DNA from: a virus
DNA length: 21,826 nt
Strand: one strand, 5' to 3'
IMG/VR virus record: IMGVR_UViG_3300032220_001120
Coordinates: 1 to 21,826 of that record
In this document: positions 1,519 to 20,438 of the stretch, piece by piece
Layout: every line of letters starts with the position of its first letter
Numbering within the stretch: the first letter of the stretch is position 1
Notes under the pieces: model-generated
What the model saw: the letters and a program-made list of their open reading frames with translations, nothing else
What the model was told of the DNA's origin: nothing
Databases searched by the model: none
Made by a program: the position numbers and the translations under genes

Positions 1519-1569
1519 ACATTTTTCCTTTTTGTTTTCGGCCATTTGTCTTTAAGGGTTAATCGTGGG

Positions 1570-4292: not shown

Positions 4293-4301
4293 AATTAATT
4301 A

Positions 4302-5099: not shown

Positions 5100-5998
5100 T
5101 TCACTAACTCCAATGATACCCATTCTTTAAGATTAACTTTAGGTTCCCATCCAAAAACTGTTTTTATTTTATTATTATCCGCAAGAGTTGTTCTTGCTTC
5201 TCCATCTCGTATGGGTATATTTATATGATTGTCTGAAATCATATGAGCAATTTCATTGATGGAATAATTAAAAGCATTTCCGACATTATATATTTGCCCG
5301 TAATATGCGTCTTCAATATTGGTAATTGCAGAAAGAATATTTGCATTTACAACATCTTGGACATGAACAAAATCTCTACGTTGAAGACCATCACCAACAA
5401 TTGTGAGAGGTTCTCCTGCATTACGTTGACGGAGAAAAATACCAATTACAGGAGCATATTGTCCTGTAGTAGGAGAGCGTTCACCATACACATTAAAGTA
5501 TCTGAAGATAACTGTCTTAAGACCATACAAATTTGTATACATCTTACAGAGTTCTTCTCCAGAAACTTTAGAAACAGAATAAGGATTCAAACAATCATTA
5601 GGGTCAGTTTCTACATTAGGAAATTTATTGAGGCCATACGCAGAAGAGGTTGAAGAATAAATTACCTTCTTAACTCCTGCTTCTCTTGCACACTGAAGAA
5701 CGGTGCAAGTGCCAACAGCATTTTTGTTTACAGCATTAATTGGATTTTCAATAGCAGGTTGAAGTCTAGATTCTGCAGCAAGGTGAAACACATAATCTAC
5801 CTTATCATATAGATCTCTAGTAAACTCATAATCACAAATATCTAGTTTGTGATTATCTGCTTTTAAGTTCCAATAAAACTTCTCATTACAATCTGCAGTC
5901 TCATTGTCAATAACGACAACTTCCCAATTCATATCGACCAATCTGTCTACAAGATTTGATCCAATAAATCCTGCTCCTCCAGTTACAAGTGCTTTCAT
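5096..5998 (-). CDS. NAD-dependent sugar-nucleotide epimerase (extended SDR, GalE/WbpP-like)
   Basis: A 300-residue protein starting MKALVTGGAGFIGSN, the Rossmann NAD-binding loop of extended SDRs. The active site is present: YSSTSSAYG supplies Ser/Thr, and PYSVSK the Tyr-x-x-x-Lys pair. FRYFNVYGERSP and RDFVHVQDV are typical of UDP-glucose/UDP-GlcNAc 4-epimerases. The ATG at 5998 forms an ATGA overlap with the gene before, so the upstream TTG in frame is not needed. It follows the HAD/cytidylyltransferase gene and may act on its nucleotide-sugar product, or may supply UDP- or GDP-galactose-type donors. The substrate cannot be read from sequence. Confidence 0.87.
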   Translation of the reverse strand: MKALVTGGAGFIGSNLVDRLVDMNWEVVVIDNETADCNEKFYWNLKADNHKLDICDYEFTRDLYDKVDYVFHLAAESRLQPAIENPINAVNKNAVGTCTVLQCAREAGVKKVIYSSTSSAYGLNKFPNVETDPNDCLNPYSVSKVSGEELCKMYTNLYGLKTVIFRYFNVYGERSPTTGQYAPVIGIFLRQRNAGEPLTIVGDGLQRRDFVHVQDVVNANILSAITNIEDAYYGQIYNVGNAFNYSINEIAHMISDNHINIPIRDGEARTTLADNNKIKTVFGWEPKVNLKEWVSLELVK

Positions 5999-6717
5999 TT
6001 TAAAGATTCGCAAATTTTATTTTTAAGTTTAGTAGTAGAGTATTCGTGGCTTCTATCAACAAAAACAATACTTATGTCAATATCTTTTCCAGTATAAGAT
6101 CCATCATTATAATCATCACCAAGAAATCTAATGTCATAATCTCCAGACTCAAGATACCAAAGAAAAGTATCTTCAGCCTGATACACAACGATATCATCAA
6201 CGTACCTAATTGCTTTTAGAATTTCTTTTCTTTCTTCAACAGTTTGCACTGGTTTAAGTTTATTTGGTCTTGCAAAAGAAGGATCTTCATGAAGTGCAAC
6301 TGTCAAATGATTACAATGCAATTTAGCATCCTTAAACATACGGATATATCCAGGATGAATTACGTCAAATGCGCCTGCAATAATACCTTTTTTCAGTGGA
6401 ATAGTTTTCTTCCACTCTTCAACATCAATACCTTTATCATCAATAAAAATATCTGCTGTTGGTTTACAAAACATTGGAAATAGTTCGTGGTACTTATACC
6501 CCCAATCATTAAGTTGTTTCGTGGTTAGTTCTGTATGATCAATACCAGATCCCTTTCCCCTAGCAGTTTGCATAATGATATGGTTTCCTTCATCATATAA
6601 GCGATTGACCTGCTCAACCATGAATGGTATTGGTCTGGCATTCAGATAATCAGGTTTTCCCAATTCATTATTAGGTGTGTCACATAAAGTCCCATCAATA
6701 TCAAAACAATAAATCAT
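5995..6717 (-). CDS. HAD phosphatase fused to TagD-like cytidylyltransferase
   Basis: A 240-residue two-domain protein. Residues 1-105 are a HAD phosphatase of the capsule-cluster type: DIDGTLCDT at 6-14 (nucleophile D6, general acid D8), TARG at 51-54, KP at 85-86 and IDDK at 92-95. Residues 108-240 are a nucleotidyltransferase: GAFDVIHPGY at 115-124, VQTVEERKEIL at 157-167, LGDDY at 199-203 and YSTTKL at 226-231, closest to glycerol-3-phosphate cytidylyltransferase. The HxGH motif is HPGY here, its last His replaced by Tyr. The start at 6717 gives an ATGA overlap. Placed after an SIS isomerase and near a GHMP kinase, it could dephosphorylate and then activate a sugar phosphate in a heptose-type path. 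The nucleotide (CTP?) and sugar are inferred. Confidence 0.85.
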   Translation of the reverse strand: MIYCFDIDGTLCDTPNNELGKPDYLNARPIPFMVEQVNRLYDEGNHIIMQTARGKGSGIDHTELTTKQLNDWGYKYHELFPMFCKPTADIFIDDKGIDVEEWKKTIPLKKGIIAGAFDVIHPGYIRMFKDAKLHCNHLTVALHEDPSFARPNKLKPVQTVEERKEILKAIRYVDDIVVYQAEDTFLWYLESGDYDIRFLGDDYNDGSYTGKDIDISIVFVDRSHEYSTTKLKNKICESLK

Positions 6718-7220
6718 ACTACTCCATGAAGAAAGATTTGATGGACACATTCAACAATCCCATAATCCCTACTATCAATATGATAGTCCCATAGAGCAGT
6801 ATTAGCAATACTTCTTGCTTTATTTGTGGCACTAAATCCAGTAAGAATTCCATAGGAAGTTTTATTAAATTCGCACCACTTAATACAATTAAGAATATTC
6901 TTTGATTCTCCACCAGAACTAATTAAAATGCATAAAGTTTCTGGTGTTGCATAATATTCAAGAAACTTTCGATAAGCATTCTCCATTCCAAAATCATTGA
7001 TAAAACAAGTTAACATTGATGGATCAGAAAATACAAGAGAATGCTTATTATGAAACTTTACATAATCTTGAGAAATATGAGAAGCAACAGAATTGCTCCC
7101 ACCATTACCGAGAATGATAATATTTTGATGGGCATTAAATGCAACTTGAAATTTTTCAAATTGCTCTTCAATATGCGCTCCCTGAAGGGCTTCAATATAA
7201 TTCAAAAAGGGATTCATCAT
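6714..7220 (-). CDS. SIS-domain sugar-phosphate isomerase (GmhA-like)
   Basis: A 168-residue single-SIS-domain protein: GNGGS at 39-43 and ASHISQDYVKF after it form the phosphate-binding and active-site start; ISSGGESKN binds phosphate; VECVHQIFLH near the end matches the helix that carries the catalytic His of GmhA. GmhA converts sedoheptulose-7-phosphate to D-glycero-D-manno-heptose-7-phosphate. Against E. coli GmhA the pair of Glu after the His (HFAEE) reads Q-D here, a change also typical, as I recall, of the O-antigen-cluster branch. It lies between a methyltransferase and the HAD/cytidylyltransferase fusion with ATGA overlaps on both sides, and close to a GHMP kinase. The order supports a heptose-type role, but another ketose phosphate is possible. 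Confidence 0.82.
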   Translation of the reverse strand: MMNPFLNYIEALQGAHIEEQFEKFQVAFNAHQNIIILGNGGSNSVASHISQDYVKFHNKHSLVFSDPSMLTCFINDFGMENAYRKFLEYYATPETLCILISSGGESKNILNCIKWCEFNKTSYGILTGFSATNKARSIANTALWDYHIDSRDYGIVECVHQIFLHGVV

Positions 7221-7978
7221 GCTTTCTTCTTAAGGCAGAAATAAATGCTATTGCCCATATCTTGATGGTTACGAAACATTGCATTACCAAAAAGATATCC
7301 AAAAAATACTCCTCTAATATTAGCAACAACTCCTTGAGGTTTTTCTGGATGATGAGGGTGCTCAAGTCCTGCAGGAGCGGCAGGCCAATTTGGATCAATT
7401 GCCAACTCAAATCCATTATCAAAAAGAATATTAATCCACTTTGCTGGATTAAACACTGACTGATGCCTACTAATCAACTTGCCATCAAGATATCCAACAT
7501 CATCACGAACTACTGCAATTGAACAACAAAGAACTCCGTCATCTTTCAAATGATTCTTAATATTACTAAAGAACATTTCAAGATCTTCTTCGGCAATATG
7601 TTCAATAACTTCCCATGTTGTAATCAAATCAAATTCTACTTTTTCGTTCTCATCATACAACTGATAAGGCTTAGTAAGATCTACAGTAAATAAGTTCTTA
7701 TCACCATACCTATCCCAGTTATGCTTTCCTGCACCTTGTTTTCTTGCTAGAGGAGACCCTTCAAGTCCTACTGCATAATCTCCCATTGAAATAAAATCTG
7801 CAATTAGTTGTCCACCAGCACAACCAAGATCCATTACCTTAAGTGGGGACTTTTTAAAATACTTTTTAATTGCCTCAATATATTCAATATCAGTAGTATT
7901 GTCATTTACGGTTCCAACTGGCGCAATATGATCTGGAGAATCTAATGCAGCAGGATAATCTGTTTCTAATCTAATCAT
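7217..7978 (-). CDS. SAM-dependent class I methyltransferase
   Basis: A 253-residue protein with the SAM-binding motif VMDLGCAGG at 48-56, an acidic LEGS loop after it, the conserved TTWEVIEHI and the strand FDLIT before it. It belongs to the Methyltransf_23/11-like small-molecule methyltransferases. The C-terminal third is long, with an unusual HPHHPEKPQG stretch, perhaps for substrate recognition. It is inserted between the GHMP kinase and the SIS isomerase, overlapping both by 4 nt (ATGA). The product may be an O- or C-methylated sugar or a capped glycan end; the acceptor is unknown. Confidence 0.85.
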   Translation of the reverse strand: MIRLETDYPAALDSPDHIAPVGTVNDNTTDIEYIEAIKKYFKKSPLKVMDLGCAGGQLIADFISMGDYAVGLEGSPLARKQGAGKHNWDRYGDKNLFTVDLTKPYQLYDENEKVEFDLITTWEVIEHIAEEDLEMFFSNIKNHLKDDGVLCCSIAVVRDDVGYLDGKLISRHQSVFNPAKWINILFDNGFELAIDPNWPAAPAGLEHPHHPEKPQGVVANIRGVFFGYLFGNAMFRNHQDMGNSIYFCLKKKA

Positions 7979-8922
7979 AATTTTTTACCTTTTACACCAT
8001 CAGGGGATACATTAATTTTAACTGAAGAATACGGTAATGTCAATTTATCCTTTTCTGAAAAGGTTAAAAAGAACCCACCATTACCTGCGCCGCAAAGTTT
8101 GTGTGCAACCACAAGCGGACTATTTAGTAAATATTCATCAATCGTTTTTATCATAGGATTTTCATTAATTGAAGAGCTTGTTTGTTTCTTTTGCTCCCAA
8201 CTTTTGTTTAAATGAAATAAAAATTCATCATAATTTTTTTGAAGAAGGCAATCATATGCGACTTCAAGAGTGTCAAGAAGTGGTGGAATTTTATCAAGAT
8301 TGTCACTTACATCTTTTAATACATTTTTTGAATTTCTTGTTATTCCAGTAAATACTAAATGTGCATCATAATTTTTAAAAAGTTCTGTAGATTGAAAATC
8401 ATATTTTACAATTCCACCTCTTTGAAACTCAATCCTTTTAAATCCACCAATACCACATCCATATGGATCTTGATATCCACAATAAGGATTGAATTCTCTT
8501 TCTAATTGATATGCAAGAGTACAGATCTCAATATCGGTCATATTAAGATCTTTAAACATAGAAACACACTTAATCAAATTGATAAGATATGACGAAGATG
8601 ATGCCAAACCACTTCCTTGAGAATATGCATCACTTGTCATACTCACATTTAAGGGGTGACATCCAAAATGATTTAAAACAACTCTGACCAAATCATTTTG
8701 AATATCGTCAATATATTTTGTTTCTTCACGTTTTGAATAATTTACAATATACTTACCTCCTTGCATATTGTATCCAAACTTATCTTCGTGCAAAGAAATA
8801 TAAGTTTTTAAATCACAAGTAAAACTAATTACAGCACCATATCCATACTTTTCAACAAAGTATGGATTATCTGTTGAACCGCCAAATAAAGAAACCCGAA
8901 GAGGGCAAGAGGAAACATACAT
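7975..8922 (-). CDS. GHMP sugar kinase (HddA-like)
   Basis: A 315-residue kinase with all three GHMP motifs: PLRVSLFGGSTD at 7-18, GSGLASSSS at 103-111 (ATP phosphate loop) and GAGNGGFF at 278-285. The arrangement matches the D-glycero-D-manno-heptose-7-phosphate kinase (HddA) branch, whose N-terminus reads PLRIS(F)xGGGTD; galactokinase and fucokinase are the alternatives. The reaction would be ATP-dependent phosphorylation of a sugar or sugar phosphate at C1. It starts inside the stop of the GT11 gene (TAATG) and ends with an ATGA overlap into a methyltransferase, two genes before the HAD/cytidylyltransferase. With the SIS isomerase it makes three of the classic four steps to an NDP-heptose. 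Confidence 0.82.
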   Translation of the reverse strand: MYVSSCPLRVSLFGGSTDNPYFVEKYGYGAVISFTCDLKTYISLHEDKFGYNMQGGKYIVNYSKREETKYIDDIQNDLVRVVLNHFGCHPLNVSMTSDAYSQGSGLASSSSYLINLIKCVSMFKDLNMTDIEICTLAYQLEREFNPYCGYQDPYGCGIGGFKRIEFQRGGIVKYDFQSTELFKNYDAHLVFTGITRNSKNVLKDVSDNLDKIPPLLDTLEVAYDCLLQKNYDEFLFHLNKSWEQKKQTSSSINENPMIKTIDEYLLNSPLVVAHKLCGAGNGGFFLTFSEKDKLTLPYSSVKINVSPDGVKGKKL

Positions 8923-9779
8923 TAAATTACAATCCAGTTATCTACATAAACATCTTTAGTATCTTTATCAGCATATGCAGGCCCAAACCACATTTTAGGA
9001 GCAACTACTTTTTTGTTTGAATTTTTAATCAACCAAGCACCCCACCAACTCATACTACTATTAGCTATTATAGCATGTGAGCATAAGGACATCAAGCACA
9101 AATCAGAATATGGAGTGTAAGAGCCATCTTCATATTTGTCTACTGGTTCAGAAACAAAAAATCTATCGCTAGCAAAAAATTCTTGTTCATTTACCCATTC
9201 AGGAGAATCAGAAAAAACAATAACAGGTTGATTATCTTCAAACTCTGCAAGTGCTTTTTCATAGTATTCTATTGGTTGAACAGGATGTTGATCCGAACAA
9301 TTCACATATGCCCATTTGAACCCACGAGGATCAACCAGATTTGGATCACCACGGCGGACATGAAGCATGATGGGTTCCTGACCATCAAACTGTTGCATAA
9401 ATTCTTTGCATGGATCCAAATGCTCATCAAGAAATGCAAAATCTTTACAAATCTCATCCGAAATATGTTGAAAATATTTTTCAGATTGAAAAAATCCATG
9501 AAGACTTACATCATCTGGACATTTGTTAAAGAGTTCATCATCAAAATGAAAGAACCTTTCCTGAACATAATTCAAATCTTCACGATAAGCAAGATTATTT
9601 TCCTTTACAGATTCTAATTTAAAGCATTTATGAAGACTATAATTTTCAATCCCCTCCATATCAAATGGAGGAATGCACCATTCATATCCATGCTTTGCAG
9701 CAATCCCACGAACAGTGGCATACTCAAACATTTGATTTCCAAGCCTTCCAAGATTTCCAATATAATTAAATGCTAGCAT
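8922..9779 (-). CDS. GT11 alpha-1,2-fucosyltransferase-like (copy B)
   Basis: A 285-residue protein with the three GT11 peptide motifs: GRLGNQMFEYA at 11-21, HVRRGD at 140-145 (GDP-binding) and FSDSPEW at 189-195, followed by ANSSMSWWGAWL at 239-250. Family members move L-fucose, and in some cases galactose, from a GDP or UDP donor to a sugar 2-OH. It is close kin to the gene at 11341-12126: both continue RGIAAKHGY after the first motif and share GFFQ(S/T)EKYF. No membrane helix. The start overlaps the previous gene by 14 nt. Confidence 0.9.
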   Translation of the reverse strand: MLAFNYIGNLGRLGNQMFEYATVRGIAAKHGYEWCIPPFDMEGIENYSLHKCFKLESVKENNLAYREDLNYVQERFFHFDDELFNKCPDDVSLHGFFQSEKYFQHISDEICKDFAFLDEHLDPCKEFMQQFDGQEPIMLHVRRGDPNLVDPRGFKWAYVNCSDQHPVQPIEYYEKALAEFEDNQPVIVFSDSPEWVNEQEFFASDRFFVSEPVDKYEDGSYTPYSDLCLMSLCSHAIIANSSMSWWGAWLIKNSNKKVVAPKMWFGPAYADKDTKDVYVDNWIVI

Positions 9780-10593
9780 ATTTCTTAAGGTAGGTTTGAT
9801 TTGAATAATATTCTTTAAGTTGTTCTTTATTCATTTGCTGAAGAGAATTCCACAATTCAAAATTTTGCTCCATATATGGATTACCTTGAATTGAGGCTGG
9901 CCAAGAGTTGGGACCACGACTATGTTCTAAATGATAAATCCAATTATCAATTCTTCCTACATTATAACCCAAAGTTGTAAATCTAAAAAATCTTTCTTTA
10001 TCTTCAGGAGATGATCCTCTAAAGTTTTCGTTTTCCATTCCTCCTTCAAAATAAGAAGAACGTTTGAAGAATTGCACCCATCCAAAATCAGAAGAACTAA
10101 CTTGAGAATTTTTGTCAAGAATGGAGAAATTAAAATCTTCATTCAAAAATTCAGAAACAATATCATCATTTACATTAACTTGCTTCTGATAGTTACCATT
10201 TCCATAAGGATAGACAACATCGCATGTTCCATTTAGAATTGATTCATATGCATTTACATATGTCTGAACTGGCATTAAAACATCACAATCATAATTAATA
10301 ACAACATCAGTTTTAACCATCGCAAGCATCTCATTTAGAATATGCATACGATAAAAAACAGGATCATCTGATTTTTCAAATATATGAGTTATATGCGAAT
10401 CTCTACCTAAAAACTCTTGAATTTGCGGAACAACTTCTTTTACAAAAACTGAAGAATTATCTACTTCTTTTATAATAATTTTAGTATCAAAGTTACCCAA
10501 TAAGAAGCAAAGAAGAGTGATTATATTTCTCATCCTATCTGCAGATTCTATCCTCAGAGGAATAATAAAAGTAGCATTTGAAAGATCAATCAT
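9766..10593 (-). CDS. GT-A galactosyltransferase-like protein (GT7-type C-terminal motif)
   Basis: The first ATG, at 10593, gives 275 residues and overlaps the gene before by 8 nt; the frame extends further only by a TTG at 10614. NYDCDVLMP at 100-108 is a DxD metal-binding site. GGMENENFRGSSPEDKERF at 184-202 resembles the GG(M/L)NExFxGWGxED block of beta-1,4-galactosyltransferases (GT7) and polypeptide GalNAc transferases. It should therefore transfer galactose, GalNAc or a like sugar from UDP in a metal-dependent way. The N-terminal IPLRIESADR is as in related bacterial GT-A enzymes. The exact donor and acceptor are unknown. Confidence 0.75.
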   Translation of the reverse strand: MIDLSNATFIIPLRIESADRMRNIITLLCFLLGNFDTKIIIKEVDNSSVFVKEVVPQIQEFLGRDSHITHIFEKSDDPVFYRMHILNEMLAMVKTDVVINYDCDVLMPVQTYVNAYESILNGTCDVVYPYGNGNYQKQVNVNDDIVSEFLNEDFNFSILDKNSQVSSSDFGWVQFFKRSSYFEGGMENENFRGSSPEDKERFFRFTTLGYNVGRIDNWIYHLEHSRGPNSWPASIQGNPYMEQNFELWNSLQQMNKEQLKEYYSNQTYLKKYASI

Positions 10594-11356
10594 TTGGATA
10601 TTCCCAATTCTCAAAAAAATCTTTATGTTTTTCTTGAAGATATTCTAACTCACTTTGAATAAATTGCCAAGCAGATCCATCACCTTCAATGACAATATCA
10701 TATTGAGATTCGAGTTGAGCAGAAACTCTATCATCACGAATTCTACTTGTGGTTAAAATGTCATTCAATATTGCTGGCATTCCATATTTCATTCGCAATT
10801 GATGATACCATTCATGATCAATTCCCATCATAATATTAACATCAAAATAAACTTTTGAATCATTTCTAATCGTAACATTAGTAGGAGCACCTATTAAGTT
10901 ATTACCAACTAAAAGATGATCTGGATACTCTGGTTTTTTATCATTGAAAAAAGTTTTTCCATCATGAGTATGATTAAATCCATTAATTAGCCATTTCTTT
11001 TTTGTAGAATCCAAAGTATTCACAATTTTTTTCAATGCATCAGTATCTACAAAAAAATCATCATGGTGAAGTATTTTAATATATTCACCACAACAATGAT
11101 CCATTACAACATTTGCATTTTTAGTTGGCACTCCTCTTCCATAAAAATTTTTAATATAAACAATTTTCATACGTGAAGAATATTCTTCACATAAATTTAT
11201 TAAATCATTAGATATAGAATGATCAGATACTACAACTTCATAGTCAACAAAAGTTTGAGTTAAAATAGAATCAAAAGATTGTTTAAGATATTGAACTCCT
11301 GCATGATCTTTTGCGTATGCAGGAATTGCAATTGATACCTTTACAGAGTTTTCCAT
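10586..11356 (-). CDS. GT2 family (GT-A) glycosyltransferase
   Basis: A 256-residue protein starting VSIAIPAY at 7-14, followed by SFDSILTQTFVDYEVVVSD, the standard start of inverting GT2 enzymes, and the metal-binding HHDDF at 97-101. After the catalytic core there is a shorter than usual acceptor region, and no membrane helices are seen, so it is a soluble or peripheral enzyme. It starts 16 nt before the stop of the GT11 gene and ends with an 8-nt overlap into the next transferase. GT2 covers many donors, so specificity cannot be given. Confidence 0.87.
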   Translation of the reverse strand: MENSVKVSIAIPAYAKDHAGVQYLKQSFDSILTQTFVDYEVVVSDHSISNDLINLCEEYSSRMKIVYIKNFYGRGVPTKNANVVMDHCCGEYIKILHHDDFFVDTDALKKIVNTLDSTKKKWLINGFNHTHDGKTFFNDKKPEYPDHLLVGNNLIGAPTNVTIRNDSKVYFDVNIMMGIDHEWYHQLRMKYGMPAILNDILTTSRIRDDRVSAQLESQYDIVIEGDGSAWQFIQSELEYLQEKHKDFFENWEYPND

Positions 11357-12126
11357 CTTGCTGGAATCAAATCAGTTGTTTTTACATCTGATGCAGCAGG
11401 CCCATACCATTTCTTAGGAGCAACTACATCATTTGATCCAGATAACCATGCACCCCACCAACTAAATGAACTATTTGCGATGATGTGATGAGAACATAAT
11501 GTCATTAAACACATATCAGAAAGATTCCAACCACTTTCAGATACCATGAATCTATCTGAAGAGAAAAATTTATGGTTCATACACCAAGAAGGATCGTCAG
11601 AAAAAACTAGTACTGGCAGATTATCATCAAACGTTTTAAGTGCTGCATCATAATAATCAAAGTCGCAAGGAGGATGATACTTAGATTTCTCAAGATAATC
11701 AGTTCTCCTGACATGAAGAGAAATAACTTTGTCAAATGTAAAAGCTCTCTTACATGGATTTAATATTGAATCCTTAAATTTAAAATCTTCACGAATACTA
11801 TCTGAAATATTTTCAAAATATTTTTCTGTTTGGAAAAATCCAAATAAACTTACATTGTCTAAACAGTTATTGACATATTCTTCACTATAAACGTGTGAAT
11901 GGTTTTCATCTTCCCTATAATATTCAGAAGAAGCAAATCCTTTGTTCTTTAGATTAGGGAGATCAAATGCTTCATAAAGTTGATGTTGATTCCATTGATC
12001 ATGAAATACTGTTTCTGGAATCATAAAATCATATCCATGTTTAGCAGCAATACCCCTAAGAGCAGCATACTGAAACATTTGATTTCCAAGTCTTCCGTTT
12101 TTTCCTAAGTGGTTGTATCCAATCAT
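11341..12126 (-). CDS. GT11 alpha-1,2-fucosyltransferase-like (copy A)
   Basis: A 261-residue protein. GRLGNQMFQYA at 11-21, HVRRTDY at 138-144, FSDDPSW at 175-181 and ANSSFSWWGAWL are the GT11 motifs. The second motif has Thr where most members have Gly (HxRRGDY), which may alter donor handling though the Arg residues are kept. A GDP-fucose (or GDP-L-galactose) donor is likely; the 3,5-epimerase gene that opens the operon could make the latter. AGAGGA lies about 9 nt before the ATG, one of only three junctions in the operon without overlap. It resembles copy B throughout. Confidence 0.9.
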   Translation of the reverse strand: MIGYNHLGKNGRLGNQMFQYAALRGIAAKHGYDFMIPETVFHDQWNQHQLYEAFDLPNLKNKGFASSEYYREDENHSHVYSEEYVNNCLDNVSLFGFFQTEKYFENISDSIREDFKFKDSILNPCKRAFTFDKVISLHVRRTDYLEKSKYHPPCDFDYYDAALKTFDDNLPVLVFSDDPSWCMNHKFFSSDRFMVSESGWNLSDMCLMTLCSHHIIANSSFSWWGAWLSGSNDVVAPKKWYGPAASDVKTTDLIPARWKTL

Positions 12127-12128
12127 AA

Positions 12129-12833
12129 TTAATCCTCTAATGTAATTCCTGGGGGTAGTCTATAATGAAATCCAAATGGAATAATTCCTTTATTTTCTGA
12201 AACTTCTGTCTCATATGAAAATTTAGCAGCAAGTTCAACATTTGGAAACTTGCATCCTTGTTCAATGAATAGATGGCGATTGTGAACACAAATATTACCA
12301 TCTTCGGCAAAATTATTTGCATTAAAGTGTTTATAGAAATCACCTTTAGTACAATCAAATGGAATTTCTATCTTTAATGGAACTTCTAAAAGTTTTTTAC
12401 TACGAAGAGAGAACCCACCATTTCCAACTCGTATGTGCTCATTAAATGGAGTTAAGTAAGAATTTTCTTGATAAGGCCATGGAGCACCAATATAATCATA
12501 TTCTAAAAACTCATCAGTCCATGCATTTGGATTTATAACAAATGCATGGTCCTGAATAATTAAAACAAAATCCGTTTCTACATGACGATGTAAATCGTAA
12601 AGTATATACTTACTATATTGGTTAATATCCGTAATTGGATATACCATTTCTTCAAGTTCAATACCATCTAACGATAATTCATTAGTATATTTTGATATTA
12701 TCTCATTTGAAGTAACTAACTTTATTGCTCCAAATTTAATATGTTGAGTACTGGTATGAATTGCCTTGATTGTTCCATCTATTCTATTCGTATTATCAAT
12801 AGCAAGTAAAGTTACTCTCGGTAAATTAATCAT
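12129..12833 (-). CDS. DUF5672-type glycosyltransferase-like protein
   Basis: The ATG at 12833 gives 234 residues and an 8-nt overlap with the aminotransferase-like gene; an ATG at 12881 would add a hydrophobic 16 residues read from inside that gene and is rejected. The pattern fits DUF5672: VTLLAID at 7-13, IKFGAIKLVT at 32-41, QDHAFVINPNAW at 94-105, YDYIGAPWP at 112-120 and VGNGGFSLRS at 136-145. This family is placed near GT-A transferases and is common in surface glycan clusters. QDH may replace the DxD metal site (often QDG/QxD in the family). The donor is unknown. Confidence 0.8.
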   Translation of the reverse strand: MINLPRVTLLAIDNTNRIDGTIKAIHTSTQHIKFGAIKLVTSNEIISKYTNELSLDGIELEEMVYPITDINQYSKYILYDLHRHVETDFVLIIQDHAFVINPNAWTDEFLEYDYIGAPWPYQENSYLTPFNEHIRVGNGGFSLRSKKLLEVPLKIEIPFDCTKGDFYKHFNANNFAEDGNICVHNRHLFIEQGCKFPNVELAAKFSYETEVSENKGIIPFGFHYRLPPGITLED

Positions 12834-14139
12834 CTTTGTAAGCATCCATAAAGTTATTAATAATACTATCAATATAATCAATCATTTTATCATTAATTGT
12901 TGGGGAACATCCAAGAAAAAATACTTTATCTAGTACTTTATTTGCCTCTGGATATTTAGATGCATCGTCAAGATGCGAATATCCAGGATGAAGAAGAATA
13001 TTTCCAGCAAAATAATTGCGAGTTTGAATTTTATTTGCTTCAAGATAAGAAACTAAAGATATTTTTAATTTCTTATTATCACAAATAATAGGAACTCCAA
13101 ACCAACTTGTTTCAGATTCCTTTCTTTCATTTACAACTCTAACGCCGGGAATTTTTTCAACAATATTTTGAATCTTAAGTTTATTATTTCTACGAATATT
13201 GTGTATCTCTTCAAACTTAATAAGTTGAACAGAACCAACAGAACCCTGAAGATCAAGGGGCTTTAGATTGTATCCCATATTTGAGAAGACATACTTATGA
13301 TCTACGACATCTTCATAGTTTTCCAACCAAGTATCAAATCTCTTTCCACAAACTCCATTAGAAAGAAGATTTTGTTGACCAACACAATAGCAACCTCTTC
13401 CCCACCAAGCAAAACTACGAGCAAGATCTACAATTTCCTTATTATTTGAAGAAACCATACCACCTTCAATCGTGCAGATATGGTGAGCAGGATAGAAAGA
13501 ACAAGAAGCAGCAATTGCAAAATCAGTTATATATTGCCCATTCCATTTACTACCAAGACTATCACAATTATCTGCAATCAGTTCAATATTATTTGTCTTA
13601 CAGATATCTACAATCTTATCAATGTCATAAGGATTGCCAAGAACCGGAGAAGAAATCACTGCTCTCGTTCTATTAGTAATCTTTGATGCAACTTGCTCCA
13701 AATCCCAATTCAAATCCTCCCAATCAATATCAACAAAGACTGGTTTTAATCCACACTGAGCAATAGGAGCAACTGTAGTAGCAAAACCACAAGCACAAAC
13801 AATAATTTCATCTCCATCTTCCCATCCAAAATACTTTTTAAGAGCAGCAAACATTACAAGGTTAGCAGAACTACCAGAGTTCACCATTACTGAGTGCTTA
13901 AAGTTAAACTTCTTAGAGAATTCATGTTCAAACTTATTGACCTTTTCACCCGAAGATAACCACTTACCTTTCAGCACAGAATAGATTAATTCTCTTGCCT
14001 CAAGATCATCCCAATAAGGGCCAGAATAATAAACACTATCCTTTCCAGCAACAAATTCTTTTTTGTTTGCTATGAAAGGAAAAATATCAGTATCAATCTC
14101 TTTTGCAGATTGAATAAAGCTATCAATTAATTGGTACAT
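12826..14139 (-). CDS. rfbH: RfbH-type 3-dehydrase of 3,6-dideoxyhexose synthesis
   Basis: A 437-residue member of the DegT/DnrJ/EryC1/StrS fold. The normal PLP Lys is replaced by His: FYPAHH at 215-220 with H220, followed by IEGGMV. That, and four Cys at 192, 250, 252 and 264 (in DNCDS, GCYC and VCGKRF), mark CDP-4-keto-6-deoxyglucose-3-dehydrase (E1; RfbH/DdhC/AscC), a PMP and [2Fe-2S] enzyme that removes the 3-OH of the sugar with electrons from a reductase. DHKYVFSNMGYNLKPLD is also typical. E1 is described with Cys spaced 57, 1 and 7 residues apart; here it is 57, 1 and 11. No reductase partner (E3) is in this window. The start overlaps the previous gene by 13 nt. Confidence 0.87.
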   Translation of the reverse strand: MYQLIDSFIQSAKEIDTDIFPFIANKKEFVAGKDSVYYSGPYWDDLEARELIYSVLKGKWLSSGEKVNKFEHEFSKKFNFKHSVMVNSGSSANLVMFAALKKYFGWEDGDEIIVCACGFATTVAPIAQCGLKPVFVDIDWEDLNWDLEQVASKITNRTRAVISSPVLGNPYDIDKIVDICKTNNIELIADNCDSLGSKWNGQYITDFAIAASCSFYPAHHICTIEGGMVSSNNKEIVDLARSFAWWGRGCYCVGQQNLLSNGVCGKRFDTWLENYEDVVDHKYVFSNMGYNLKPLDLQGSVGSVQLIKFEEIHNIRRNNKLKIQNIVEKIPGVRVVNERKESETSWFGVPIICDNKKLKISLVSYLEANKIQTRNYFAGNILLHPGYSHLDDASKYPEANKVLDKVFFLGCSPTINDKMIDYIDSIINNFMDAYKDD

Positions 14140-14945
14140 AATTCGTTAATAATTTTTTTGGTGGAGATTGTTTGAGTAAATCCTAATTGATTTAATTTAG
14201 TCGTATCAAGCCAAAAATCTTTTGCCTGAACAATTTTATGAAACTCTGGTGCTTCTTTATATTTGATTTGAGATGTAGAGTTAAGACACTCTTTTGCTGT
14301 TTCAATTATAGCACCTATAGTAGTTGGTTGTCCACTACCAATATTATAAATTTCATTCAAGTTGCCTTTATCGCACACCAATTTAATTGCAGAGCATACA
14401 TCATTAACATGCATAATATCTCTGATTGGAGTTCCATCATCGTATAGATAAACATCTTCATCTTTCTTCAAAAGTTCAATCATATAACTCAAAGCATTTT
14501 TCTTTGATGAAGATTTTCCATCACCAACTCCCATAACATTACAAAGTCTCATAATTCTATAATTAACTTTGTAAGTTCGGCAGAAAGAAATTAGAAGATC
14601 TTCCGCTGCCTTTTTGGTGATTGAATAAAACCCAGTTGGATTGCAGTGATAAATTTCTTTTGCAGGTAGTTCTGTTTCTCCATAAACAAACCAAGAACTA
14701 ATAAAATTAAAGGTAATATCTTCTTCTCTACAATAATCTAATACTTCACAAAGAACTTTTAAATTTGTTTCAACATCCAAAGTTATATTTGTATGGATAT
14801 TATAATTGTCCACTGTAGAGATAAGATATAAAATTTCTTTTGTTCTTGGTTTTCTTTCTTCTCTTTCTTGTCTCACAATCAAATCGGGATAGAGGTTGCA
14901 GAACCTACTACCTACAAATCCCGATGCACCATATACGCTAATCAT
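14127..14945 (-). CDS. NAD-dependent epimerase/dehydratase (extended SDR)
   Basis: A 272-residue protein: GASGFVGS at 5-12 is the Rossmann loop, SSWFVYGE and FYSITKK give the Ser and Tyr-x-x-x-Lys active site, and RDIMHVNDV and YNIGSG are family blocks further on. It is somewhat short for the class, lacking much of the usual second-strand region after residue 30. It lies directly upstream of the RfbH gene with a 13-nt overlap, so it may make or reduce a 4-keto or dideoxy sugar in the same path (4,6-dehydratase or 4-reductase); this is inference from position. The start has a 4-nt ATGA overlap with the FkbM gene. Confidence 0.85.
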   Translation of the reverse strand: MISVYGASGFVGSRFCNLYPDLIVRQEREERKPRTKEILYLISTVDNYNIHTNITLDVETNLKVLCEVLDYCREEDITFNFISSWFVYGETELPAKEIYHCNPTGFYSITKKAAEDLLISFCRTYKVNYRIMRLCNVMGVGDGKSSSKKNALSYMIELLKKDEDVYLYDDGTPIRDIMHVNDVCSAIKLVCDKGNLNEIYNIGSGQPTTIGAIIETAKECLNSTSQIKYKEAPEFHKIVQAKDFWLDTTKLNQLGFTQTISTKKIINELCTN

Positions 14946-15646
14946 GCAATCCTTTTATTCTTAAACAGAGCATCACCACCTGCACAATCAACAAAGGGAA
15001 ATGTTGCGAGAAGATCAAAATTTTCTGAAAGCATTTCAATAATGCCATCAAGATAAATCTGATCCTTGTACATTTCTTGATTATAATATTCAGTGTAAAC
15101 ATAATCAATATTTGAATATGTTTCTTTCATTCCAGAAAGAACTTCTCTTTCAGCACCTTGAGTATCCATCCAGATAAAATCAATATGATTAATATGATAT
15201 TCTTTACAGAAAGAATCTAAACTTCTACCTTGAGCCTGGACTGTTTGATCAAACAGAATGCCAGGGTACATAGATGCTTGGTCAATTGGATCATGAATAG
15301 ATCCAGAATATCTACCAACCTCATAACCCTCACCAGGACATCCTAAAGTTCTGGATCGTTTAAAGGTGATAATCTTATCTTCTTCACATATTGCATATGG
15401 ATGAAAAATATTTCTTTGGTCCAGAATAATATCATCATTTAATTCATCTACACAGTTTTTTGTTCCAAGAACTGTCAGTGCTTTAATATTAACTGGTTCT
15501 GGATCAAATGTGTATAGTTTAAGATTGTCTCCAAAGGTATTGAGAAAATTTCTTGTATCTCTTCCATCGGCACATCCAATTTCAAAAATTACAACTTCTT
15601 CTTTTTCCCCAATCAATTGTTTAATTTGGTCGTGAGTAATTGCCAT
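14942..15646 (-). CDS. FkbM-family SAM methyltransferase
   Basis: A 234-residue protein with IFEIGCADG at 20-28 (SAM motif I), TFDPEP at 46-51 (FkbM-type acidic motif II), the RSLDSF block and IDFIWMDTQGAEREVL, the hallmark WxDxQGAE/DVEGAE segment of FkbM O-methyltransferases. Such enzymes O-methylate sugars in polyketide, capsule and glycoprotein glycans. There are no membrane segments. AGGAGA lies about 8 nt before the ATG, overlapping the stop of the gene before (3-nt gap). The substrate is not known; a terminal sugar hydroxyl is likely. Confidence 0.87.
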   Translation of the reverse strand: MAITHDQIKQLIGEKEEVVIFEIGCADGRDTRNFLNTFGDNLKLYTFDPEPVNIKALTVLGTKNCVDELNDDIILDQRNIFHPYAICEEDKIITFKRSRTLGCPGEGYEVGRYSGSIHDPIDQASMYPGILFDQTVQAQGRSLDSFCKEYHINHIDFIWMDTQGAEREVLSGMKETYSNIDYVYTEYYNQEMYKDQIYLDGIIEMLSENFDLLATFPFVDCAGGDALFKNKRIA

Positions 15647-15649
15647 GAT

Positions 15650-16729
15650 CTATTCTCCTAAAATTCTTTTTTGAAATTGAAACTGATTTAATAAATTTTG
15701 CAATGCTTGAGTTTTAATTTGATTGTATTGAACTCCAATATCACCTTTCATCCAAGGGAGAGTATTGCTAGCATTTTTATAATGAAAAATAAATGCATCC
15801 TGAAGAAGATTATCGTCAGTTTCAAACTTTAGAAAATCAACAAACGTTGGTTTAGGGAAATTATTTTCTCCAGCAACTTTCATGATTGTATCAAAGTTAT
15901 TATATGCATATTCCCAATAGTTTTCTCTTTCCTTTTGATGAGGGAATGTTCTTAGATTAGATTCTTGATAGTCTCTAATATTAACTTCTCCCCGATCAAA
16001 ATCAGCAAACATTTGAGCGCACCCGTTTAAACTAATTTCATATGGGGGATTAATATCAACGAGAACTCCCCACTGATCAATGTACTTAGTTTTCAGTTTA
16101 TCTTCATATTTTTGAAGATAATGATAAACTTCGCCACCAACATCAACAGCAATATTCTTAACTTCACCATATCCCCAACTAATTTCTTCGGGATTTGGCA
16201 TCTCATATGGTTTAGCCATCACAAGACCATTCCAGGGATATTTAAATGCTATGTTTCCCCTATTATTTTCATCTTTATATTGATTGGTATATCTATATGA
16301 TGGAACATATGCAAAGTTATGTTCTGCCATTTCTTCATTCAAAGAAATATCTCTAATAAAAAACATATCAGAATCAATAATGACTGATAGACAATCATTC
16401 TTTGCGATATAATTTTTCCATCCCCAGGTATATGAATATGCACAAGCAATGTTTCCATTAAGGTAACTATCACCATCGAACATTTTTACACCATTCATAT
16501 ATTGAAGTTCTGGGTCCAATTCTACACGAATGCATTGAATGCCCAGACTTTCACATATATCATTAATTTGACCTATTTTATTTTCATCAAATCCACCATC
16601 TCCACCTGGTCTTTCATTATTAAAGACAATAAACTCATAGTCATCCTTAACGTGACGTTTGATTGCCTCATACTGAAGTTTGATAAAATCAGGACGGTTA
16701 TGAGAGTAAGTGTAAATTTTCATGATCAT
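15650..16729 (-). CDS. GT-A type glycosyltransferase-like protein
   Basis: A 359-residue protein, the longest transferase candidate here. MKIYTYSHNRPDF at its start and VIIDSDMFFIRD at 117-127 (a DxD site on a buried strand) are as in GT-A nucleotide-sugar enzymes; between them ACAYSYTWGWKNYI resembles the donor-loop helix of that fold. A C-terminal HYKNASN may carry a metal-binding His. I cannot assign a CAZy family by eye. The ATG at 16729 makes an ATGA overlap; a second ATG two codons later is also possible. No membrane helices are seen. Confidence 0.7.
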   Translation of the reverse strand: MIMKIYTYSHNRPDFIKLQYEAIKRHVKDDYEFIVFNNERPGGDGGFDENKIGQINDICESLGIQCIRVELDPELQYMNGVKMFDGDSYLNGNIACAYSYTWGWKNYIAKNDCLSVIIDSDMFFIRDISLNEEMAEHNFAYVPSYRYTNQYKDENNRGNIAFKYPWNGLVMAKPYEMPNPEEISWGYGEVKNIAVDVGGEVYHYLQKYEDKLKTKYIDQWGVLVDINPPYEISLNGCAQMFADFDRGEVNIRDYQESNLRTFPHQKERENYWEYAYNNFDTIMKVAGENNFPKPTFVDFLKFETDDNLLQDAFIFHYKNASNTLPWMKGDIGVQYNQIKTQALQNLLNQFQFQKRILGE

Positions 16730-17688
16730 TTTCCTCTATAAAATTCATTATTTTTTTTATATTCCTGATATTCAGATTTGCAGTCACTTCCAATCATTAG
16801 ATTACCATCGCGGTCTAACCAATTCCATTCGTCAACAATTGAATCGTCAGGCCTCCACCATCCATCAGATATTTTCCAATCAAACCAATACTTAGGAGCA
16901 ATAACTGAGCAATCTTTATTTGTCCAAACAGGCCAAAATGCAAATGTAGATGAAGAAATAATAGCATTTTTAGCAGTATTAAGAATAGAATAATCAACTC
17001 CAACTGGACCGCCAGGATACCTATACCACCCTATACTTCCCTGATATGGATCCTTTTCATCCATCAAAGCAGATCCTACAACTTCTGCAAATGGAATAAA
17101 CTTCATTGCATGTTCTGCATCATCAGTTACAACAACAAACTTCATATTTGGATTTTTTTCTCGCATTCTAAATGCAGCATTATGATAATATTCTGGAGGA
17201 ACCCAAGATGCTCCAGTCAAATAATCACCACCACGAAATTGAATTACGCAAATGTCATCGGAAGAATAATCAGTGATTTTATTATCATATTGTAACCAAT
17301 CAATGATTTTATCACGCTTATCATTGATATAAGACATCTTTTGAAAGCACCCTTCAATCTTAGTATTATCCTGAAGATTGTCCCAAAGATTTTTATCAAA
17401 AAACATTGCATCGTGTCCTCCCATATGTGGGGGATATGGATCTATACGTTCTTTGTAATAATTAAGAATTCCATCTGGAAGACTTGTAGGAGGACCTCCC
17501 TCTGGGCCCGTTCCTCCATTGACTTCTTCACCAAAATAAAAATCCTTCATAAAGGCACATGCCTTAAATGGATTTGATTTTTTTACTCCCCACTTATATC
17601 CATGACGGTCAGCAACAATTCTAGGAACAATAAGATTCCATAATTGATTACCAAGTCCAGATCCACTATAAATTTCAGAAACAATCAT
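16726..17688 (-). CDS. GT11-like (fucosyltransferase-related) protein
   Basis: A 320-residue protein with a diverged GT11 plan: SGLGNQLWN at 10-18, QFRGGDY at 150-156, VVTDD at 186-190 and IISSSTFAFWPVW at 243-255, aligning with the GLGNQMF, HxRRGDY, FSDD and NSSFSWWGAW blocks of the two closer GT11 copies. The first Arg of HxRR is missing (QFRGG), so donor choice may differ. An insert at 55-95 is rich in Gly and Pro. It overlaps both neighbours by 4 nt (ATGA). GDP-fucose or GDP-L-galactose is the inferred donor. Confidence 0.78.
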   Translation of the reverse strand: MIVSEIYSGSGLGNQLWNLIVPRIVADRHGYKWGVKKSNPFKACAFMKDFYFGEEVNGGTGPEGGPPTSLPDGILNYYKERIDPYPPHMGGHDAMFFDKNLWDNLQDNTKIEGCFQKMSYINDKRDKIIDWLQYDNKITDYSSDDICVIQFRGGDYLTGASWVPPEYYHNAAFRMREKNPNMKFVVVTDDAEHAMKFIPFAEVVGSALMDEKDPYQGSIGWYRYPGGPVGVDYSILNTAKNAIISSSTFAFWPVWTNKDCSVIAPKYWFDWKISDGWWRPDDSIVDEWNWLDRDGNLMIGSDCKSEYQEYKKNNEFYRGK

Positions 17689-18551
17689 TTTATTAAATAT
17701 GCATATTTTTCTTTATTTTCAACTAGATATTCTGGAAAAGAATCGTCAATAGAAACAGTTTCATATGATGTATAGTTTCTTCCAAATGGATCTAAGTTAT
17801 TTTTAACCTGAGAGATATTATTTTTTATTTGATCAGTATTAAGTTCTGGATGAGATGAGCACTCTATTTTCTTGATTAATCTATCTTCAACAGAAATACC
17901 TTCACTTCCAACATAACTCCAGTGCCAACCACCAGGATTTATAATGAAATTTTCAATGTCATCACGATTATTTCTAAGTTCTGTCATTGAATATTTTTCA
18001 AGTAATGAAAATCCAAATAACTTAGATCCAAACCATTTTCCTGGCATACCAAAATCTCCAGTCATAGATCTGATTGTACCAGATACTTCTTTTAGATTGA
18101 GATAAGATATGTAGTTATCTTGAGCAAACTGATATATGCCACTATCTTGAAAATATGTGCGTATGTCACCAATTGCTTCTGGATTTGGAACTTCGTCAAG
18201 ATCGCTCCAAATAATTATATCATCCTCATTACAAACTTCCAATAAAATATTTTTAATATTATCTTTTTGGTAAGTATCTCTTTGCTGAGCTTTAACTCTA
18301 GTATTATACTTTACTCCATATGTATCAAGTTGATCGTCACTAATATCTTCTACAATATTGTGAATAATTTTGTGATTAAACTTTTCAAATTTATCTTTAT
18401 TATTTGAATAATAAAGTTCCTTTTCTGCTCCTTGAAATGTTTTAGTAGATTCGCTGATTACAAAATAATCAACGTAGGGATCTAAAAGATTTAATCTTAT
18501 TTCTAATAAATCAAGTTCATTAAAGAATGGGAATACATCAAATATTTTCAT
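17685..18551 (-). CDS. GT17-family N-acetylglucosaminyltransferase-like protein
   Basis: A 288-residue protein whose start, DVFPFFNELDLLEIRL at 5-20, then VISESTKTFQG at 31-41, and SDLDEVPNPEA at 116-126 match the GT17 family (the catalytic part of animal MGAT3, which adds bisecting beta-1,4-GlcNAc), well known also in phages and bacteria. PGGWHWSY further on is another family block. It lacks the membrane anchor and stem of the animal enzyme. The start overlaps the previous gene by 14 nt, the end by 4. The donor is likely UDP-GlcNAc or a relative; the acceptor is unknown. Confidence 0.87.
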   Translation of the reverse strand: MKIFDVFPFFNELDLLEIRLNLLDPYVDYFVISESTKTFQGAEKELYYSNNKDKFEKFNHKIIHNIVEDISDDQLDTYGVKYNTRVKAQQRDTYQKDNIKNILLEVCNEDDIIIWSDLDEVPNPEAIGDIRTYFQDSGIYQFAQDNYISYLNLKEVSGTIRSMTGDFGMPGKWFGSKLFGFSLLEKYSMTELRNNRDDIENFIINPGGWHWSYVGSEGISVEDRLIKKIECSSHPELNTDQIKNNISQVKNNLDPFGRNYTSYETVSIDDSFPEYLVENKEKYAYLIK

Positions 18552-19395
18552 AGTCTTTTCTCATTTCATTGAATACTTTAGCAATACCGGTCTCAATTGA
18601 AGTCTTTGGTAACCACCATTTATTAATATACATATCTGGACGATTCTTTTTATCCATTTGGACTATATCCTTTTCTTCTGATGGTTTAATTTTGACATCA
18701 TATTTATTAATTAAATTAAATTGTCCTTTAATAATCTGAGCTATATCCAAAATTTTAGTTGGGTGAAAACTAGTAATATGAAGATTATCTTCGCAAGTGA
18801 AGTCTGTATAGTTTTCCATAATTGATTCAAGTGCTTCACAACAATCTTCGGCATAAAGAAACTCACGTTCCTCTTCACCATCAGTAAGCATGTCAATTAC
18901 ACCAGTTTCAAATCCCTTACGAATAAAGTCTGTGATAACATGCGATTTCTCATGATCATTTTCAACACCATAAACATTCCAAAACTTTACAATAAGTCCA
19001 TTTAAAGATTTGGTATAAAGTTCTCCAACTTTTTTTAGAACTCCATATGGAGAGTAATTCATATTACTCATTTGAGATGATGCAAAAATAAATCTCTTAT
19101 TATACTTTTGAAGAAGTCCAAAAGCATTAGTCATCAAACGAGTATTGTTATTAATAAATTGAAAGGTGTGTTGATACTTCTTAAGATAACGAGAACCGCC
19201 AACATCAAAAGCCAAGAAGAATACAAAATCAGAATTCAAAATTCTTTCATCAAGAAGAGGATTAGGAATCAATGTGAGATCTTGATCTTCTCCGTTTACA
19301 ATATCAAATTCTGTTACTTCGTGTCCCTTATTACGAAGATATTCTGTTAAATAAACACCAATTTGTCCACCAGAACCTAGAATAGTTATTTTCAT
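18538..19395 (-). CDS. NAD-dependent epimerase/dehydratase-like SDR
   Basis: A 285-residue extended SDR: ILGSGGQIG at 5-13 is the dinucleotide loop, FASSQMS supplies the Ser, and YGVLK the Tyr-x-x-x-Lys pair. VKFWNVYGVEND and REFLYAEDC match sugar-nucleotide epimerases. The loop is GxGGxxG, with fewer conserved residues after it than in the other three SDRs here. FLAFDVGGSRYL echoes the AADMGG stretch of GDP-mannose 3,5-epimerase, whose likely relative lies directly upstream (ATGA overlap), hinting that the two act in one GDP-sugar path. The exact reaction is unknown. Confidence 0.8.
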   Translation of the reverse strand: MKITILGSGGQIGVYLTEYLRNKGHEVTEFDIVNGEDQDLTLIPNPLLDERILNSDFVFFLAFDVGGSRYLKKYQHTFQFINNNTRLMTNAFGLLQKYNKRFIFASSQMSNMNYSPYGVLKKVGELYTKSLNGLIVKFWNVYGVENDHEKSHVITDFIRKGFETGVIDMLTDGEEEREFLYAEDCCEALESIMENYTDFTCEDNLHITSFHPTKILDIAQIIKGQFNLINKYDVKIKPSEEKDIVQMDKKNRPDMYINKWWLPKTSIETGIAKVFNEMRKDYENI

Positions 19396-20438
19396 TTGTT
19401 TTTAATTTGCTCAACAATCCAAAAATAAGTTTTAGCAATACCTTCTTCCAAACTTTGAGAATAATCCCAACCAAGTTCTTTACGAACTACATCATTATTT
19501 GAATTACGTCCACGAACTCCAAGAGGTCCATCAATATGATTTTTTTCTACATCTTTACCTGCAACTTTTGCAGCAGTCTCTACGAGTTGATTGATAGTGA
19601 CCATTTCTTCTGAACCAATATTTACTGGTCCAATGAAATTAGAATTCATCATTCTACGGGTTGCTTCGATACATTCATCAATGTAGAGGAATGAACGTGT
19701 TTGTTTTCCATCTCCCCACACTTCAATCGTTCCACCTACATCAGGAAGTTCTGCAACTTTACGGCAGATAGCTGCAGGTGCTTTTTCCCTACCACCAGTC
19801 CAAGTCCCTTCTGGTCCAAAAATATTGTGGTATCTAGATACACGTACAGGAATACCATAGTTACGATGATAAGCAAAATACAGACGTTCCGAAAAGAGTT
19901 TCTCCCATCCATATTCGGAATCTGGGTTTGCTGGATATGCGGATTCTTCACGGCAATCGGGATTATCAGGATCTAATTGATTATGTTCTGGATACATGCA
20001 GGCAGATCCAGAATAGAAAATTTTTGTGAAATTCTTTCCAAGAAAATCATTAAACTTACGAACTGATTCTAATACATTCAGATTAATCGTAACTGAATTA
20101 TGCATGATGTCTGCATCATTCTCACCAGTGAAAACAAATCCAGCCCCACCCATATCGGCAGCAAACTGATAGATCTCATCAAATCCTTGAAGATAACGTG
20201 AAGGAACAAAATTATAAAAGTTCCCACGGTCTCCTTTATATTGAATTACTCTTTCCACAAAAGTAACATCTCTCAAATCTCCAAGCACAAATTCGTTTGC
20301 TTCGGTAGAAGAATACTCAGGATACTTAAGATCTACACCACGTACCCAATATCCTTCGGAACGCAGTCTTTTAACCATATGACTTCCAATGAAACCACCA
20401 GCACCAAGGACAAGTGCCTTCTTAACATATTGACTCAT
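19392..20438 (-). CDS. GDP-mannose 3,5-epimerase-like SDR
   Basis: A 348-residue protein close in pattern to plant GDP-mannose 3',5'-epimerase (GME). LGAGGFIGSH at 11-20 binds NAD; AADMGGAGF at 93-101, YSGSACMYPE at 142-151 (acid/base C147), SEYGWEK at 174-180 (Y176, K180) and RYHNIFGPEGTW with GGREKAPAA (second acid/base Lys) reproduce the GME active site. Product: GDP-L-galactose (or GDP-L-gulose) from GDP-mannose, which would feed the GT11-type transferases. The ATG at 20438 has no clear ribosome site; the -10 box of its promoter is 30 nt upstream. It is the first gene of the operon. Confidence 0.87.
   Translation of the reverse strand: MSQYVKKALVLGAGGFIGSHMVKRLRSEGYWVRGVDLKYPEYSSTEANEFVLGDLRDVTFVERVIQYKGDRGNFYNFVPSRYLQGFDEIYQFAADMGGAGFVFTGENDADIMHNSVTINLNVLESVRKFNDFLGKNFTKIFYSGSACMYPEHNQLDPDNPDCREESAYPANPDSEYGWEKLFSERLYFAYHRNYGIPVRVSRYHNIFGPEGTWTGGREKAPAAICRKVAELPDVGGTIEVWGDGKQTRSFLYIDECIEATRRMMNSNFIGPVNIGSEEMVTINQLVETAAKVAGKDVEKNHIDGPLGVRGRNSNNDVVRKELGWDYSQSLEEGIAKTYFWIVEQIKNK

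Follow-up and report, generated by a model that had tools for sequence, protein, structure and literature searches.

The virus record IMGVR_UViG_3300032220_001120 of IMG/VR, a fragment of 21.8 kb from a marine cyanobacterial virus, analysed over its whole length (21,826 nucleotides, here called the window), carries on its minus strand a gene, 14139-12826, for what is very probably a nucleotide-sugar 3-dehydrase of the E1/SpnQ type. Such an enzyme would use vitamin B6, in the form of pyridoxamine 5'-phosphate (PMP), and probably an iron-sulfur cluster, to remove an oxygen from a nucleotide sugar. The fuller proposal, which we hold to be somewhat better than an even bet, is a cytosolic PMP-dependent 3-dehydrase that holds the cluster, receives its electrons from ferredoxin, and acts on a substrate linked to thymidine diphosphate (dTDP). 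That rfbH is a viral metabolic gene was, of course, already known. What is new is a clade with 11 residues before the last of four conserved cysteines, a missing E3 reductase, and neighboring genes of the dTDP type.

An initial annotation, made from the letters of the DNA, had placed an RfbH-type dehydrase at 12826-14139, and the gene is as described there: one uninterrupted open reading frame (ORF) of 437 codons on the minus strand, encoding 437 amino acids, with the plus strand closed by many stop codons. The protein matches PF01041 (253 bits), which gives it the DegT/DnrJ/EryC1 fold. The top NCBIfam model is RfbH (NF011936), which gives 370 bits and so falls short of its cut-off of 423. Among chains of the PDB compared by sequence, E1 is best (3bcx, 225 bits; 3bb8 is also E1) and ColD is next (184 bits); identity to E1 is 33.5% over 400 columns. 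An AlphaFold2 model built from a 34-row alignment (mean predicted local distance difference test score, pLDDT, of 82.5; predicted TM-score, pTM, of 0.83) again ranks E1 (3bb8/3bcx) first in Foldseek, and VIA-align gives E1 Z scores of 45.2 (400 residues) and 44.9, against 42.6 and lower for aminotransferases and 41 for ColD. Residues, family, and fold therefore agree with the annotation in pointing to an E1-type rather than a ColD-like dehydrase. The model speaks neither for nor against the geometry of the cysteines, because pLDDT falls below 50 at the cysteine loops (the low stretches are residues 215-223, 247-253, 265-271, and 278-290).

Two scans supplied relatives for comparison. A viral scan gave 206, of which 80 were kept; a genome scan gave 18 loci in cells, including entries from Prochlorococcus, Nostocales, Bacteroidota, Pseudomonadota, Nitrospirota, and Actinomycetota. 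The viral loci are not independent (L019 and L020, and likewise L073-L075, look near-identical), and one cell locus, L091, is filed under a Saprospiraceae metagenome-assembled genome (MAG) yet looks like a phage contig.

The annotation had assigned His220 to the place of the lysine that binds pyridoxal 5'-phosphate. The switch from lysine to histidine stands, because neither His219 nor His220 varies in any of 81 aligned viral ORFs (L002-L081 together with L001, which is the copy in the window) or in any of the 18 cell loci. The numbering was off by one. In the alignment, the catalytic H220 of E1 falls on His219 of the window's protein (codon 13483-13485, minus strand, as are all codons given here), E1 H221 falls on His220 (13480-13482), and the lysine of the E1 H220K chain 3bb8 lies over His219.

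The four cysteines, put forward as ligands of a [2Fe-2S] cluster, are exactly where the annotation had them: Cys192 (13564-13566), Cys250 (13390-13392), Cys252 (13384-13386), and Cys264 (13348-13350). They align with C193, C251, C253, and C261 of Yersinia E1, and the residues between them number 57, 1, and 11, versus 57, 1, and 7 in E1, so that the four extra residues noted before the last cysteine are there as well. Among the 12 cysteines of the protein, these alone are shared by all 80 viral relatives, all 18 cell loci, and E1, and their conservation is more than chance. Most of the others vary; C213 is constant within the clade and absent from E1.

It might be supposed, of course, that the cysteines are relics, and that the protein is a cluster-free dehydratase like ColD whose product is freed by hydrolysis while glutamate renews the PMP. 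ColD is, after all, the next family by sequence. Further, genuine versions of this kind exist in the cyanophages ACG-2014f and S-CAM7, whose weaker homologs keep the histidine pair and are without the three later cysteines. Cys192 is present in these ColD-like phage paralogs too, and is not diagnostic alone. The other three, however, are lost in the paralogs and kept in every viral and cell relative of the clade, where most other cysteines vary, and a cluster-free enzyme is for this gene quite improbable. To judge by these residues, cyanophages hold both cluster-bearing and cluster-free types of 3-dehydrase. The ColD-like genes lie at L087:7917-9110 (ACG-2014f) and L090:5953-7086 (S-CAM7); two records deposit the latter as "putative CDP-4-keto-6-deoxy-D-glucose-3-dehydrase."

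The spacing is itself informative. The 11-residue stretch between Cys252 and Cys264 (13351-13383) is constant over the 82 rows of the viral alignment and can be seen in each of the 18 cell loci; it is the mark of a widespread clade rather than a one-off insertion. The pattern C-X57-C-X1-C-X7-C of E1 and RfbH proper was not found; the spacing is 57/1/11 throughout the clade. Because the spacing, the score relative to its cut-off, and the E3 partner all differ, the dehydrase is kept apart from RfbH/E1 proper, and what survives of the "RfbH-type" label is the E1/SpnQ type. With a score below the cut-off and 33.5% identity, the substrate cannot be transferred from E1.

In the tree, E1 and the ColD-like phage proteins sit on very long branches, apart from the dehydrase clade. 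Most phage sequences fall in one group of 28 rows, together with one Prochlorococcus sequence and L091 (ultrafast bootstrap, UFBoot, 94; approximate likelihood ratio test, aLRT, 99; not a starred node). The phage sequences L079, L086, and L085 are placed among cell sequences, so that exchange between phage and cell has probably occurred more than once. Alignment A3 was made without L066 and L106, because in both the match extends slightly, by a few codons, beyond the stop. Three loci deserve mention in their own right. L091 (DKPS01000090.1) is a 9.5-kb contig with cyanophage-like glycan genes and a dehydrase 77% identical, and is probably of phage origin and binned with the MAG. L085 (LR756502.1), a 642-kb record of an uncultured phage, has a clade dehydrase (53%) adjoining a second homolog (29%). 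Nostocales HT-58-2 has two very similar dehydrase copies (L101 and L102) near haem genes (porphobilinogen synthase, hemC, and coproporphyrinogen oxidase).

Is the gene used at all? A passage in Sullivan et al. (2010; PMC3037559) raises the possibility that lipopolysaccharide (LPS) genes of cyanophages are functionless filler for headful packaging. The dehydrase is rare in the host family (3 of 101 genomes), and gene order in the clusters varies, both of which a filler would allow. Against this, the gene is under purifying selection, with dN/dS of 0.03-0.11 in five pairs (Nei-Gojobori), and the residues of catalytic type are all invariant across sequences that are 70-90% identical. Filler DNA is therefore exceedingly improbable here, and the finding weighs against that view of cyanophage LPS clusters.

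An E1 enzyme has E3 as its reductase, which we take to carry the NAD_binding_1 domain (PF00175). The annotation found no E3 in the window, and this was borne out more widely. The 49 phage records searched, many of them fragments, comprise eight named phage records and 41 viral contigs, for the most part the longer of the 80; none has PF00175 over its cut-off, and one has a weak match below it. Six of the 49 are phage genomes of more than 200 kb deposited as complete, four with the clade dehydrase (S-B43, RB11-B, S-B05, and RN05-S) and two with the ColD-like type. Among cell genomes with the clade dehydrase, PF00175 occurs in 13 of 17 (L102, from the same genome as L101, was not entered separately), and of the 24 places where it occurs, none of the 20 inspected lies within the dehydrase locus. 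A Pfam tally near the 18 cell loci, made on 96 hand-picked proteins out of 144 ORFs, is limited to the 25 most frequent families out of 129, and a single E3 could escape it.

The hosts are similar. A NAD_binding_1 protein is present in 94 of the 101 host-family genomes, exactly one in 90 and two in four. Nostocales HT-58-2, with one complete chromosome and its two dehydrase copies, has a single PF00175 protein, whose C-terminus resembles that of ferredoxin-NADP reductase (FNR); those of four Prochlorococcus genomes are FNR-like as well. These single cyanobacterial proteins are presumably FNR, an identity that rests on a C-terminal sequence which we take to be FNR-typical. Because only three of the 101 genomes (G045-G047) have the dehydrase itself, the phage usually supplies an activity that its hosts lack.

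Without E3 in the phages, and with usually a single NAD_binding_1 protein in the hosts, ferredoxin, whether from phage or host, is the likely donor, and we would accept this with fair confidence. SpnQ offers precedent, for ferredoxin or flavodoxin pairs with it in place of E3, according to the passages on it in a review (PMC8987622). Fer2 is found in 19 of the 49 phage records (13 of 41 viral contigs and six of eight named phages); that of S-H68 scores as a plant-type ferredoxin (147.8 against a cut-off of 81.15). The gene, petF, is present in all five named Synechococcus phages that have the clade dehydrase, and in S-H68, RB11-B, S-B05, and RN05-S it lies ~11-12 kb from it. As a specific partner petF was considered and set aside as weak: the five phages are closely related, petF of S-B43 is far from the dehydrase, and petF occurs widely in cyanophages, which makes its co-occurrence weak evidence. 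The annotation's suggestion of a host or phage ferredoxin gains weight from the hosts (one NAD_binding_1 protein in 90 of 94) and from the 19 phage records.

The neighbors bear on the substrate. Well-flanked viral loci, with upstream sequence of 8 kb or more and downstream sequence of 7 kb or more, number 43. Of these, 41 have a short-chain dehydrogenase/reductase (SDR), here called SDRup, 28 an RmlB-type dehydratase, 23 a TagD/HldE-like nucleotidyltransferase, 21 RmlC, six Gmd, and one RmlA. In L034 the genes run nucleotidyltransferase, RmlB, RmlC, SDRup, dehydrase, with RmlB at 404 (cut-off 365) and RmlC at 234 (156); the model for cytidine diphosphate (CDP)-glucose dehydratase gives the RmlB-type gene 117, against a cut-off of 278. 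L018 has RmlA (449 vs 361) beside RmlB. In cells, RmlB is just upstream in L102 (Nostocales; 380 vs 365), and an actinomycete MAG (L106) has an RmlA-like gene upstream (290 bits, below the cut-off of 360.65). As a separate observation, the nucleotidyltransferase of L034 (7162-7662) overlaps the RmlB-type dehydratase gene, and L018 has RmlA in that place instead.

An orthodox RfbH/E1 would instead take CDP-4-keto-6-deoxy-D-glucose, from the host or from a phage TagD-like cytidylyltransferase with a dehydratase, toward a sugar of the abequose, paratose, or ascarylose type. The best named family is indeed RfbH, the best structures are E1, CDP-glucose 4,6-dehydratase is present in 35 of 101 host-family genomes, and many loci (23 of 43; L034 is an example) have a cytidylyltransferase-like gene ahead of the dehydratase. 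Yet that protein resembles ethanolamine- and glycerol-phosphate enzymes and domain II of HldE, not RfbF. The CDP-glucose dehydratase model finds nothing over the 49 phage records, and the lone NTP_transferase of the RmlA/RfbF type (one of 49) is RmlA. RmlB is over its cut-off in 72 of the 101 host-family genomes; the three that have the dehydrase have RmlB in three and the CDP enzyme in one. The orthodox route is therefore rather unlikely. The RmlB-type neighbors, with no CDP-glucose dehydratase in the phages, favor a dTDP-linked substrate, to which we would give about an even chance. The carriers that the review describes for 3,6-dideoxyhexoses, in its part on these sugars, are CDP and guanosine diphosphate (GDP), from which dTDP would differ (PMC8987622).

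The chemistry proposed follows that reviewed for E1 and SpnQ. PMP would form a Schiff base with a nucleoside diphosphate (NDP)-4-keto-6-deoxyhexose, and His219 would drive loss of the C3 hydroxyl. A putative [2Fe-2S] cluster on Cys192, Cys250, Cys252, and Cys264 would deliver two electrons, one by one, to the PMP-glucoseen adduct, giving an NDP-4-keto-3,6-dideoxyhexose. Their source would be a plant-type ferredoxin of the host, or PetF in phages that have it, which photosystem I or FNR would charge. The substrate, most likely dTDP-linked, would be the product of an RmlB-type dehydratase, whether the phage's or the host's. The upstream SDR would then reduce or epimerize the product, some phages adding an RmlC-type 5-epimerase, and glycosyltransferases of the cluster would use the resulting sugar; both product and acceptor glycan are what we infer. 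In its broadest form, the proposal is that a widespread, phage-carried clade without E3 takes electrons from photosynthetic ferredoxin to make a dTDP-linked 3,6-dideoxyhexose, tying glycan synthesis during infection to photosystem I. This we offer tentatively, as possible rather than probable.

Several points weigh against the proposal. The enzyme type is judged here from sequence and model; the loop of Cys250 and Cys252 and the stretch just past Cys264 are among the poorly modelled parts (pLDDT below 50), and the sub-cut-off RfbH score and modest identity to E1 have been given above. For the donor, the window has no ferredoxin gene, and its lysozyme end recurs in a 106-kb viral record (G004, locus L005) in which psbA is present, with two Photo_RC genes in all, but no Fer2. 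Further, petF is frequent among cyanophages in any case, with 279 records against 471 with NrdB (at least 60% identity), and in 44 of 153 genomes in a published set (PMC10452541). A search with PF00175 is, of course, blind to an unrelated reductase. For the substrate, neither RmlB nor RmlC is in the window, 15 of the 43 well-flanked loci are without a nearby RmlB, RmlB and RmlC could serve rhamnose synthesis instead, and about a third of host-family genomes have the CDP-glucose dehydratase counted above.

The gene overlapping the dehydrase upstream by 13 bases is SDRup (14127-14945, minus strand; 272 amino acids; Pfam Epimerase). It immediately precedes the dehydrase in 52 of the 88 viral loci, the window counted, and in 10 of 18 cell loci from several phyla. 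By motifs that we take to be those of SDR proteins, its sequence shows YxxxK and the glycines of a Rossmann fold but not the DE pair that marks 4,6-dehydratases, which makes a ketoreductase or epimerase likely; its relatives are described only as general epimerases or dehydratases. Just downstream, with an overlap of 56 bases, is a DUF5672 protein (12129-12881, minus strand), probably glycosyltransferase-like by its Pfam match, with a homolog in 80 of 88 viral loci.

These genes belong to a cluster of twenty glycan genes (3483-20438, minus strand), recognized from ORFs and profile matches, most of which overlap their neighbors, by 1-56 bases. A promoter scan upstream of the cluster found six against 4.7 expected, not above chance. 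Near the window's end, lysozyme and C39 peptidase genes match 283 phage records, all with names of the cyanophage type (Synechococcus 232, Cyanophage 43, Prochlorococcus 7, Marine 1). With a tRNA-Met at 21247-21320, these matches imply a T4-like phage of Synechococcus or Prochlorococcus. The setting fits the LPS clusters near tRNAs of large cyanophages, as a part of the same 2010 study describes them (PMC3037559). Beside the lysozyme gene, overlapping ORFs in different frames (579-1349 and 1192-1545, minus strand) are arranged like a spanin pair, an identity that is a guess.

The same cluster suggests one other route. GmhA (6714-7220), an HddA-like kinase (7975-8922), and, adjoining them, a fusion (5995-6750, minus strand) of an N-terminus that by eye is like a haloacid dehalogenase (HAD) phosphatase with an HldE-C/TagD-like nucleotidyltransferase, look like a compact phage pathway to an NDP-heptose. 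If its 4-keto-6-deoxy form were what is 3-deoxygenated, then the dehydrase would belong to a heptose branch. But of the 88 viral loci with the dehydrase, no more than 14 to 17 have these genes as well, and the window, read from its translations, has no 4,6-dehydratase with the DE motif. This makes a heptose substrate highly improbable, and the dTDP-linked hexose remains our preferred substrate.

What would follow, if the proposal is true? The open question of the missing E3 becomes a testable rule: a clade without a dedicated reductase in the viruses examined, and with none beside it in the cells examined, should run on ferredoxin. Phage ferredoxin would have a use beyond bilin reduction and electron flow, photosynthetic electrons would be linked to the synthesis of surface sugars during infection, and dTDP-linked 3,6-dideoxyhexoses would be indicated. 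At least one ocean-wide gene catalogue leaves out cyanophage LPS clusters by rule, as its statement of rules reads (PMC11360552).

The gene has, of course, been met before. In the passages that name them, rfbH, ascC, and ddhC are listed among marine viral metabolic genes (PMC10653327), and rfbH is reported in Sargassum viruses (PMC11295528); these listings carry no analysis of residues, clade, partner, or nucleotide. The literature searches made here found nothing on the dehydrase clade, a ferredoxin donor, or the nucleotide.

Among characterized enzymes, E1 (AscC/DdhC/RfbH, the CDP-6-deoxy-L-threo-D-glycero-4-hexulose-3-dehydrase of Yersinia pseudotuberculosis) shares with the phage protein its fold, the histidine in place of lysine, and four cysteines separated at first by 57 and 1 residues. 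The two are 33.5% identical and differ in the last gap, 7 versus 11, and in the phages neither a gene for E3 nor one for CDP-glucose dehydratase was found. ColD, the GDP-4-keto-6-deoxymannose 3-dehydratase, is like it in fold and in the same histidine, but has no cluster, whereas the phage dehydrase keeps all four cysteines. As a set, the L034 row of nucleotidyltransferase, 4,6-dehydratase, RmlC-type epimerase, SDR, and 3-dehydrase parallels the steps of the ascarylose (asc) genes, whose roles we take to be these. Unlike asc, it is without E3, its nucleotidyltransferase is TagD/HldE-like, and its dehydratase is of the dTDP kind. The working model for the phage dehydrase is SpnQ of Saccharopolyspora spinosa, which, as the review's passages on it state, combines a four-cysteine [2Fe-2S] cluster and PMP with a dTDP substrate and a ferredoxin or flavodoxin donor (PMC8987622). 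The comparison is with that description, and SpnQ differs in acting on a 2,6-dideoxy substrate.

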